Assembly (NCBI GenBank): GCA_963920765.1
Contig: OY987242.1
Coordinates: forward strand, 34,372,002 to 34,436,001
DNA: 64,000 nucleotides
Source of the DNA: Ulota crispa
Taxonomy: Eukaryota > Streptophyta > Bryopsida > Orthotrichales > Orthotrichaceae
Reading direction: 5' to 3'
Shown here: positions 61,235 through 63,880 of the stretch, piece by piece
Layout of the letters: every line of letters begins with the position of its first letter
How positions within the stretch are numbered: position 1 is the stretch's first letter
Position numbers and translations under genes: made by a program
The notes under the pieces: model-generated
The model's database searches: none
Seen by the model: only the letters and a program-made list of their open reading frames with translations
What the model was told of the DNA's origin: nothing

Positions 61235-63404
61235 ATGATGGGAGGACGACGGGAATTTCGATGGGGAGATGCAGCAGAGGAGGATGACGGAATTGAGGGC
61301 GTTTTGCCGCCTACTCAAGTCATAGGCCCTGATGAGATGGGAGTCAAGATTATCATCGAATGGCGCATGAACGATGAGGGAGTCCGCACCAAAGTTACGA
61401 AGACCGTTCGCATCAAGAAGCAGGTAAGTTATGCCGTTCTTGAAGTTTCTTCTTTGTGTAAGTTAAAGGTTTCTTGCTTTCTCTTTCAATTTCCATGGCA
61501 GTATTCAGGGCTTATTATTTTCTCGATTCGATTTTAAGTGAGCTCGAATTGGCTTTTTCTTGTCTCTAATTCGACCTTAATTTTATTTTGAGTTGATTCG
61601 GATTTTATAGATGCATTCTGCTTCCGTATGAGAAGAGTTCAAAATAATTTGTTAAGATAACAAAACGTATGGATAGAAGGGAAGGATCCTGAGTTGCATT
61701 AAGGAAAGTTAGAGATCAGTGTTTTAGGAATTATAATTGCAATCGATACGATCGATTATTAGCTTTCAAATTAGATTTTCTGTTTTGATGTGGACTCCGA
61801 TTGGTTAATGTTGTACTCAAATCAGGTAAAGAAGTTGAATCCGGCAGCAATTCAGAGGCGTTCTTTGAAGAAGTTTGGTGATGCGCTCGGTCAGAATGCA
61901 TCCGACAATCTAACAGTTGTATCGACGGAGGAAATCTTCCTGGAGAGGACCAGACCAGCTGGTGCGAAAGCAGAGCCGGAGAAGGGAGCCGATCTTGCCA
62001 GTCTTGGAAATGCGTCACTGATCGTATGCAGGACATGTGGAAAGAAGGGAGATCACTGGACGTCCAAGTGTCCGTTCAAGGATATCGCTGCGACCAAGGT
62101 CTTTTTCCCTGGAAGTGAGAAGCCACCAGCTGATGACGACATGGTAGTTTCAGGTTTAAACACCATATTAGGTAAATTAGGAAAAACAGATGGACCATTT
62201 TGTACTCCACCTTAATTTTACAGATAGTAAATGTAGGCATATCTATAGCTCAAAGTAGTAATTATTTAAGGGAAAATTTCATGGATACCACTGAAGTTTG
62301 CAATATTTTCATGGATACCCTGCTTTTTCAGAAATATCACAAATACCCTTGTGGACCATAAAATTTAAGGGTTTGTTTTTTTATGCATGTCACTTCCTTC
62401 TCCCTTTGTGCGCACAATACTTCTTTCTTCTTATTTGTGCGCACAAAGGAAGAAGGGAAGTGGCATGCACAACAAAACAAACGCCTGATTTGTTTGGCCC
62501 AAGGGTATTTTTGAAATTTCTGAAAAAGCAGAGGTATCTATGAAAATATTGCAAACTTCAAGGGTATCCATGAAACTCTCCCATTTTTTAAAGGGTCTTG
62601 ATATTGCCACCCCTCTTTTTGATACTGCCACCCCCCTCTCTTACAAAATTGTTCAATTCTTAGTTGTTTTTGGGGACTTTTTTTTTTTTTTTTAATTTAG
62701 AATTAAAAACGTATCAAACTAAATGATTTTTGTTGGTGTTTTTCAAAATAATAAATGGAAATCAAAATTCTTAGCAAAAAAAAGATAAAAGAGTATTGTC
62801 TTTTCTTATCAAATTTTTTGATTGTAGTTAAATATTTTGAAAAACACCAACAAAAAATCACTTAGTTTGATACATTTTTAATTCTAGTTCTAAAAAAATT
62901 GTCCCCAAAAATGACTATGAATTGAACAATGCTGTAAAAGAAGAAGGTGACAATATCAAAAAGAGGGATGACAGTATCAAGACCCTATTTAAAGCTCTTG
63001 GAGGCAATCACTGAGACTTCACCATTGTACAAGAAAATGCACACCTGTTTTTTTGCAATATGCTAAATTTTACATAATGGCAGAAATAGTGAAAGTCCCA
63101 AATGTACTGTTTTTCCCCATTCATCTAATGTGGTGTTTTCAGGCGGAGTATCTGCAGGACCAGGGGCCAAGGGGTCGTATGTGCCACCGAGCATGCGGTC
63201 CGGGGGGAAAGCTGATGGAGGAGAGAGCATGCGACGCGGGAGAGACGACAACTCCATTCGGGTGACAAATCTGTCAGAAGACACCCGCGAGCAAGACCTG
63301 CAGGAGTTGTTCAGACCGTTCGGCGCCATCTCTCGGATTTACGTCGCCTTTGATCGTGAAACCGGACTCAGCCGCGGTTTTGCTTTCATCAATTTTGTTA
63401 ATCG
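61235..63404 (+). CDS. EIF3G: Eukaryotic translation initiation factor 3 subunit G, 5' part (cut by window end)
   Basis: Three exons (61235-61423, 61826-62153, 63143-63404) give 259 complete codons. The final exon or exons, with the rest of the RRM, lie beyond 64,000. The order is family-typical. An N-terminal eIF3G domain has LPPTQVIGPDEMGVK and STEEIFLERTRP. A zinc-binding motif reads CRTCGKKGDHWTSKC (C-x2-C-x5-H-x4-C, residues about 136-150). Then come GSYVPPSMR and an RNA-recognition motif with IRVTNLSE (RNP2) and RGFAFINF (RNP1). eIF3G is a cytoplasmic subunit of the eIF3 complex that helps the 43S ribosome scan mRNA and resume initiation. MM at the start gives two possible initiators. 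Intron 2 is built from nested transposable elements; intron 3 carries another copy. Confidence 0.93.
62268..62582. mobile_element. Palindromic MITE, family E, copy 3 (nested in eIF3G intron 2)
   Basis: The arms match as reverse complements ('tttcatggatacc' left, 'ggtatccatgaaa' right). The centre holds 'tttgtgcgcacaa'. This is the best-preserved copy of the family. Confidence 0.85.
62592..62985. mobile_element. Palindromic element with GGGTCTTGATA ends (nested in eIF3G intron 2)
   Basis: The left arm reads AGGGTCTTGATATTGCCAC and the right arm, inward, AGGGTCTTGATACTGTCAT. The arms stay alignable for over 150 bp through 'aatttagaattaaaaa'-type sequence. The flanks TTTTTAAA and TATTTAAA could be an imperfect 8-bp target duplication. 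Confidence 0.75.
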
Positions 63405-63611: not shown

Positions 63612-63880
63612 GATTACAGTACTATATTAGGTAAATTGGGAAAAACAATAAACTCTGGGACTTTCATTGTTTCTATCATTATGTAGAATTTAGTATTTTA
63701 CAAAAAACAAGCATGCACTTTCTTGTATAGTAGTGAAGTCTCAATGATTGCCTCCAAGAATTTCAAATAATTTTAAACTTTAAGCTATAGCTATGCCTAC
63801 ATTATTGTATGTAAGATTAAGGTGGAGTACAAAATAATCCCACCATTTTTTCCAATTTATCTAATATGGTGTTTTATTGT
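63612..63880. mobile_element. Second copy of the eIF3G intron-2 element, in intron 3
   Basis: The left end contains CTATATTAGGTAAATTGGG and the right end, inward, AAACACCATATTAGATAAAT. It shares internal phrases with intron 2, such as 'tttgtactccacctta' (complement) and 'gggactttca' (complement). TTTATTG appears near both edges. This shorter copy lacks the two nested palindromes. Confidence 0.7.

Follow-up and report, generated by a model that had tools for sequence, protein, structure and literature searches.

Candidate introns formed by a MITE family with splicing signals in its inverted ends, in eIF3G and three other genes of Ulota crispa

Transposons acting as introns and the eIF3G locus

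That a plant transposon may act as an intron was reportedly described for maize Ds by Giroux in 1994. The part of PMC3443670 available to us counts 35 transposon-derived introns over Oryza, Drosophila, Oikopleura and Zea, the rice case being a catalase gene according to its reference list, and treats as unsolved why some transposons undergo splicing and whether any preferentially drive intron gain. Introners are reported, in the available part of PMC9860276, in 175 of 3,325 genomes, with only two animal groups represented among animals and land plants. The types described in that part include Chrysochromulina and Symbiodinium types with 4-bp target-site duplications (TSDs), a Chrysochromulina type that carries its own 5' splice site and borrows the 3' one, and an Aureococcus type that adds codons to the mRNA. 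MITEs of mulberry and carrot alter splicing and give rise to alternative splice variants and exonisation (PMC12595863, available part), and the available parts of PMC12595863 and PMC12550479 discuss plant MITEs near and in genes without a mechanism in which terminal inverted repeats (TIRs) encode an intron. Our literature search, in which subscription papers and preprints were little covered, found no land-plant introner recognised as such.

We analysed a window of 64,000 nucleotides of Ulota crispa (contig OY987242.1), in which an eIF3G coding exon is interrupted by a MITE. The sequence makes it probable, in our judgement, that the MITE inserted into an uninterrupted exon and became an intron whose splicing we predict; the same appears to have happened at least three times more, in genes for an ALMT protein, a Myb protein (MYB) and a glycine-rich secreted protein (GRP). 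Like the algal and protist introners, as the available part of PMC9860276 presents them, this would be intron creation by exon insertion with a 4-bp TSD, an element-borne donor and added codons. Unlike them, the element is a MITE in a land plant, most sampled copies lie outside identified exons, and the donor lies 13 nt inside the terminal repeat, whose reverse complement provides a branch and pyrimidine region, so that either orientation should work. The maize Ds and rice cases are alike in that a transposon in a plant exon acts as an intron, here a predicted one; as far as the available text describes them they differ, since here one MITE family recurs in four genes under one rule. The mulberry and carrot MITEs also supply splice sites, whereas the available part of PMC12595863 does not describe them as creating introns in coding sequence that was uninterrupted before. 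Taken singly, the eIF3G intron thus belongs to a type already on record; a land-plant form that recurs and is encoded by the TIRs would be new. If this reading is true, the ends of a transposon can be suited to splicing in advance, and such an element could persist within exons of genes as important as eIF3G.

The interrupted exon and its element

The gene with the interrupted exon is eIF3G: the joined exons match the Pfam families eIF3g (E 4e-32) and RRM_1 (E 1.2e-20). The stretch 62154-63142 splits it between TCA G/ and /GC GGA, in phase 1 on both sides. Solved structures, among the matches listed (60 of 128), include eIF3g relatives and carry nothing on intron positions. The features are as follows (window coordinates; a slash within letters marks a splice junction).

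61235-61423, plus strand: eIF3G exon 1, from the start codon to CAG/GTAAGT
61826-62153, plus strand: eIF3G exon 2, which carries the zinc-knuckle part and ends TCA G/ (with the TIR donor it would extend to 62171); the joined protein matches Pfam eIF3g
62154-63142, plus strand: intron as predicted earlier, 989 nt, CAG/GTTTAA to TTTTCAG/G, also in frame
62172-63142, plus strand: intron, preferred predicted model, 971 nt, TIR donor TAG/GTAAAT to TTTTCAG/G
62155-62158, plus strand: left 4-bp target copy TTTA, register taken from 72 copies
62159-63137, minus strand relative to the family: outer MITE, to which about 245 aligned bases belong, differing by 10.6% from the majority sequence of the sample
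62159-62188, plus strand: left TIR AACACCATATTAGGTAAATTAGGAAAAACA, holding the donor TAG/GTAAAT at 62171/62172
62270-62582, no strand assigned: palindromic repeat nested in the MITE; 40 of 5,893 candidate places in the genome were scored, 38 of them being other places that match at 87-91%
62585-62993, no strand assigned: second nested inverted-repeat element, with a relative at C2:29411087 (86%)
63108-63137, plus strand: right TIR, with a pyrimidine run and a branch-type CTAAT starting 18 nt ahead of the acceptor
63138-63141, plus strand: right 4-bp target copy TTCA, which also forms part of the acceptor TTCAG/G
63143-63404, plus strand: eIF3G exon 3, first part of the RRM, in frame, phase 1
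63621-63873, plus strand: another MITE copy of the same family in the next eIF3G intron, 206 of 239 aligned bases agreeing with the family

An earlier note on this DNA had proposed that an inverted repeat lying about 5 nt from both splice sites forms the ends of a transposable element. Both points hold. The inverted arms (62158-62189 and 63107-63138) are 32 nt long and 84% complementary, the MITE ends 5 nt from each of the splice sites proposed there, and the family TIR has 1,122 + 1,197 = 2,319 matches in the 274.8-Mb genome at up to three mismatches; a reversed TIR control pattern gave 0 matches genome-wide at the same threshold. The interior is not one element, as had been assumed, since the two other inverted-repeat elements are nested within it. 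The left 109 and right ~150 outer bases together make one complete family MITE in minus orientation, with 26 mismatches in 245 bases (10.6%) to the sampled majority sequence. The note had also considered that the true ends might lie well inside the intron; the outer MITE is complete end to end. Many genome places of the nested repeat at 62270-62582 match it on both strands. In the first 1 kb past the window end (L053), a further diverged inverted-repeat copy, TTAACACCATAGTTTGG...AACGAATATGGTGTTT, lies in eIF3G intron 3.

The genome holds two eIF3G paralogs, neither of which has an intron at the insertion site. In the paralog at C1:24052091, residues 62-260 form one exon right across the site, and the paralog at C7:17409647 lacks an intron at the site and has one about 18 codons upstream of it. 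Because both paralogs are without it, we read the intron of the window copy as a gain. It could instead be an old intron later filled by transposons, with the original sequence lost save its ends, and the next intron of the gene, at a position common to the paralogs, does hold a copy of the same family. We consider this very improbable: in addition to the intron-less paralogs, similar copies occur in three other exons, and only 10 nt of the intron as drawn earlier is non-element sequence, to which an older intron would need to have shrunk, so that this explanation appears untenable. The upstream intron of the C7 paralog (L052, C7:17409647-17410562) is itself absent from the other two eIF3G copies and has AAGG at both likely edges, as set by us; it may be another gain, or may have been lost in the other copies.

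The state of the gene bears on whether the gained intron is removed. Without splicing, the frame meets a stop 20 codons past the 62153 junction, ahead of the RRM, whereas the exons past the junction are open as far as the stop codon. Of the residues common to both paralogs, the window copy has changed 5 of the 92 that precede the junction, four of these in the linker directly ahead of the site, and 0 of the 105 that follow it. Where the two paralogs have identical codons, changes confined to the window copy are 11 synonymous and 0 nonsynonymous before the junction, and 24 synonymous and 0 nonsynonymous after it. The dN/dS values are 0.053 before and 0.013 after the junction against the C1 paralog, and 0.080 and 0.026 against the C7 paralog. 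The 0 of 105 shared residues changed downstream provide our best available argument that the gene works and that the element is spliced out. Since the element itself is 10.6% diverged and a dead exon could have decayed meanwhile, the downstream exons appear to have been under selection while the element was present. That the insertion broke this copy, leaving no full-length protein, would agree with the early stop in the unspliced frame, and splicing is here predicted from DNA rather than read from RNA; given the unchanged shared residues and the open exons downstream, we find a broken gene hardly credible.

Target duplication and splicing signals of the family

The sampled copies are mostly ~257 bp long with a 30-bp TIR, and the family is a MITE family in being short, in having terminal inverted repeats and a 4-bp TSD, and in its high copy number. 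The TSD was determined on 72 copies of 220-300 bp. Agreement between the two flanks rose above background only at the 4 bases touching AACACC...GGTGTT, at 51, 51, 53 and 59 of 72 copies, against 11-24 of 72 in the four columns on either side. The 4-bp duplication is perfect in 39 of the 72 copies, matches at three of four bases in 14 more and at fewer in 19, while mispaired controls are perfect in 1.7%; an earlier, overlapping sample had it perfect in 13 of 26. The 4-mers at the eIF3G insertion, TTTA and TTCA, match at three of four bases.

TTTCAGG is indeed present at both edges of the insertion, as the earlier note had observed when it took this heptamer for the TSD. Because the family duplicates 4 bp, with flank agreement limited to those bases in the 72 copies, we rejected TTTCAGG as the family's duplication; the genome search which the note had proposed, for the TIR with 7-8 bp duplications, recovered the TIR family and duplications of 4 bp. 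A direct repeat of at least 6 bp anywhere in the 14-nt flanks occurs in 5 of 72 real copies and in 53 of 2,000 mispaired controls; the eIF3G site is therefore not alone in having such a repeat, although few sites do. The longer TTCAGG repeat here is best read as old exon, TCAGGT TCAGGC, probably encoding Ser-Gly twice. The empty site would have been TTCAGGTTCAGG with a 4-bp duplication, versus TTTCAGG once with a 7-bp one.

Within the TIR, AACACCATATTAG/GTAAATT, a donor-like site lies 13 nt in from the end of the element. The opposite end of the MITE, in the same reading direction, is TTTTTCCC...CTAAT...GGTGTT, which is a pyrimidine run with a branch-type motif; the plant branch consensus is CTRAY. 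Donor and branch motif are kept in at least one orientation in 55 of the 72 sampled copies, a figure that leans high because the copies were found by their TIR. In eIF3G the TIR donor (62171/62172) lies 18 nt beyond the one proposed earlier (62153/62154) and in the same frame. Its pairing with U1 is only moderate, at -6.9 kcal/mol, and somewhat better than that of the earlier donor (-5.7); eIF3G intron 1 reaches -12.3, and two paralog donors, as set by us, -5.1 and -9.2 kcal/mol. The earlier donor and the acceptor at 63142/63143 do keep the eIF3G frame, with phase 1 on both sides, as had been stated; the 5' site chosen there is in frame without being the best donor.

These data are consistent with the following course of events. 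The MITE would have landed in the uninterrupted coding exon of the window copy and given rise to a spliceosomal intron. The element would supply the 5' splice site TAG/GTRAAT, 13 nt inside its terminal inverted repeat, and its 3' end, as the reverse complement, would supply the pyrimidine run and the CTAAT branch-type motif. The acceptor AG would be the first one in the host flank just past the element, and either orientation should work because the ends are inverted repeats. After splicing, the mRNA would still contain the left target copy, followed by 13 nt of transposon sequence. Because the family duplicates 4 bp and the donor lies 13 nt inside the end, the old exon is probably restored inexactly, the mRNA retaining six codons (18 nt past the earlier donor).

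The competing view is that a 7-bp TSD, TTTCAGG, was created, and that splicing from CAG/GTTTAA to CAG/G restores the old exon exactly. The heptamer at both edges, the preserved frame and the flank repeats of at least 6 bp in 5 of 72 copies (53 of 2,000 mispaired) speak for it; yet the family's TSD is 4 bp, TTTA, the four bases between TTTCAGG and the left TIR, is left unexplained, and the donor is somewhat weaker than the TIR donor. We regard exact restoration as doubtful while granting it a real chance. Of the earlier proposal of an intron made by a DNA transposon, the insertion is well supported by the paralogs, the complete element and the downstream frame; the exact geometry, in view of the 4-bp TSD and the inner donor, is not.

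Copies in other coding exons

The arrangement that we prefer for eIF3G extends beyond what the earlier note had thought: it recurs in three other coding exons. In a first screen, the flanks of 84 distinct copies were joined without splicing assumptions and long frames across the junction were sought. A splice rule that leaves nothing to choose, with the donor at +13 and the acceptor at the first AG past the element, was then applied to 79 distinct copies outside the window gene, drawn from exact TIR matches, from patterns favouring AGGT or CAGG beside the ends, and by similarity to the eIF3G intron. This gave 103 oriented copies in which the donor was present and an AG followed within 40 nt. 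Exons with gene evidence were found for 3 of the 79, the rest being without it or unsettled, and since sampling was not random this is no clean rate.

The names ALMT and Myb rest on Pfam. The ALMT element (L002, C5:4871351-4871927) lies within the last part of the gene (Pfam E 1e-10); a paralog has the two matching stretches in one 165-codon frame, the linker around the site being missing there. The MYB element (L102, C5:2565841-2566053) lies in an exon open to the stop codon, ~1 kb after a same-strand Myb domain (E 2e-9). We infer that this exon, which itself has no Pfam match, and the domain belong to one gene. The MITE sits between coding repeats, and a neighbouring repeat shows the unsplit sequence. 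The split exon (C5:2565520-2566450) consists of tandem coding repeats (GDGAGASVQAREAVYSPGNRQQLGL), one of them cut by the MITE. The GRP element (L036, C2:15694163-15694683) follows the signal-like N-terminus of a glycine-rich secreted protein for which Pfam gave no family above cut-off. In two paralogs, 66% and 51% identical, a single frame runs from the signal peptide into the conserved part, although the exact insertion point does not align.

Under the splice rule all four predicted introns, in eIF3G, L002, L036 and L102, are in frame and in phase 1. The donor is at +13 in 4 of 4, the acceptor is the first AG, 5-14 nt past the element, and CTAAT starts 18-27 nt ahead of it. For L002, L102, L036 and eIF3G jointly, the rule-joined products read ...KDG-NTTS-GWIP, ...GDG-PSIL-GASV, ...KAA-NTIL-GEAA and ...SGL-NTIL-GGVS. 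By our estimate a copy passes the rule by chance, with no stop and the right phase, at about 2/9, which gives 0.011 for three passes in three (ALMT, MYB, GRP). Another copy, L100, has no in-frame solution under the rule and may be a fourth exonic copy besides these three; its sole gene evidence is a Pfam match of E 0.063 that scores 14 bits where the cut-off is 27. Counting it as a failing exonic copy, three of four has a chance of 0.037.

It could be argued that eIF3G is a lone lucky case, the other in-frame fits being chance in a family without special ability. There are only three such cases, with a joint chance of ~1%, or ~4% if L100 is a failure. Three exons nevertheless read on past the element in the same phase, and 55 of the 72 sampled copies have the donor and branch motif in one orientation or both; we therefore consider luck rather improbable, and repeated formation of introns by the family remains our reading. 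Under the splice rule, joined frames of at least 43 codons on each side occur in 8 of 103 oriented copies versus 51 of 2,623 mispaired ones, and of at least 60 codons in 4 of 103 versus 7 of 2,623. Among these 4 are L026 and L036 read in antisense, and the test therefore favours our reading only when combined with gene evidence.

Five copies with long open joined frames (L061, L026, L035, L091 and L076) had no gene identified. The 213-codon joined frame of L061 is probably spurious: its left flank resembles an exon read in a different frame that has a GC donor ~40 nt ahead of the element. This flank may be part of a gene, Pfam having given nothing above cut-off for it. The other four were likewise not accepted as exonic cases, no gene having been identified.

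Predicted introns of the family thus occur in several unrelated genes (eIF3G, ALMT, MYB and GRP), with predicted splice sites at a constant place. That the coding sequence was previously uninterrupted is clear for eIF3G and for the MYB repeat, and the evidence is supportive for GRP and ALMT. On balance we favour, with some reserve, the view that this is a land-plant introner family whose ends are two-faced splicing signals, such that an exonic insertion in either orientation may become an intron once a host AG follows. It would account for some tens of introns genome-wide, a guess of order only, obtained by scaling 3 of 79 to ~1,160 copies.

A further family copy (L086, C1:23614892-23615100), with a left flank that matches no named gene and with the TSD absent, lies directly ahead of an exon for a B3 DNA-binding domain (E 3e-9) and is in frame by the splice rule, in phase 2.
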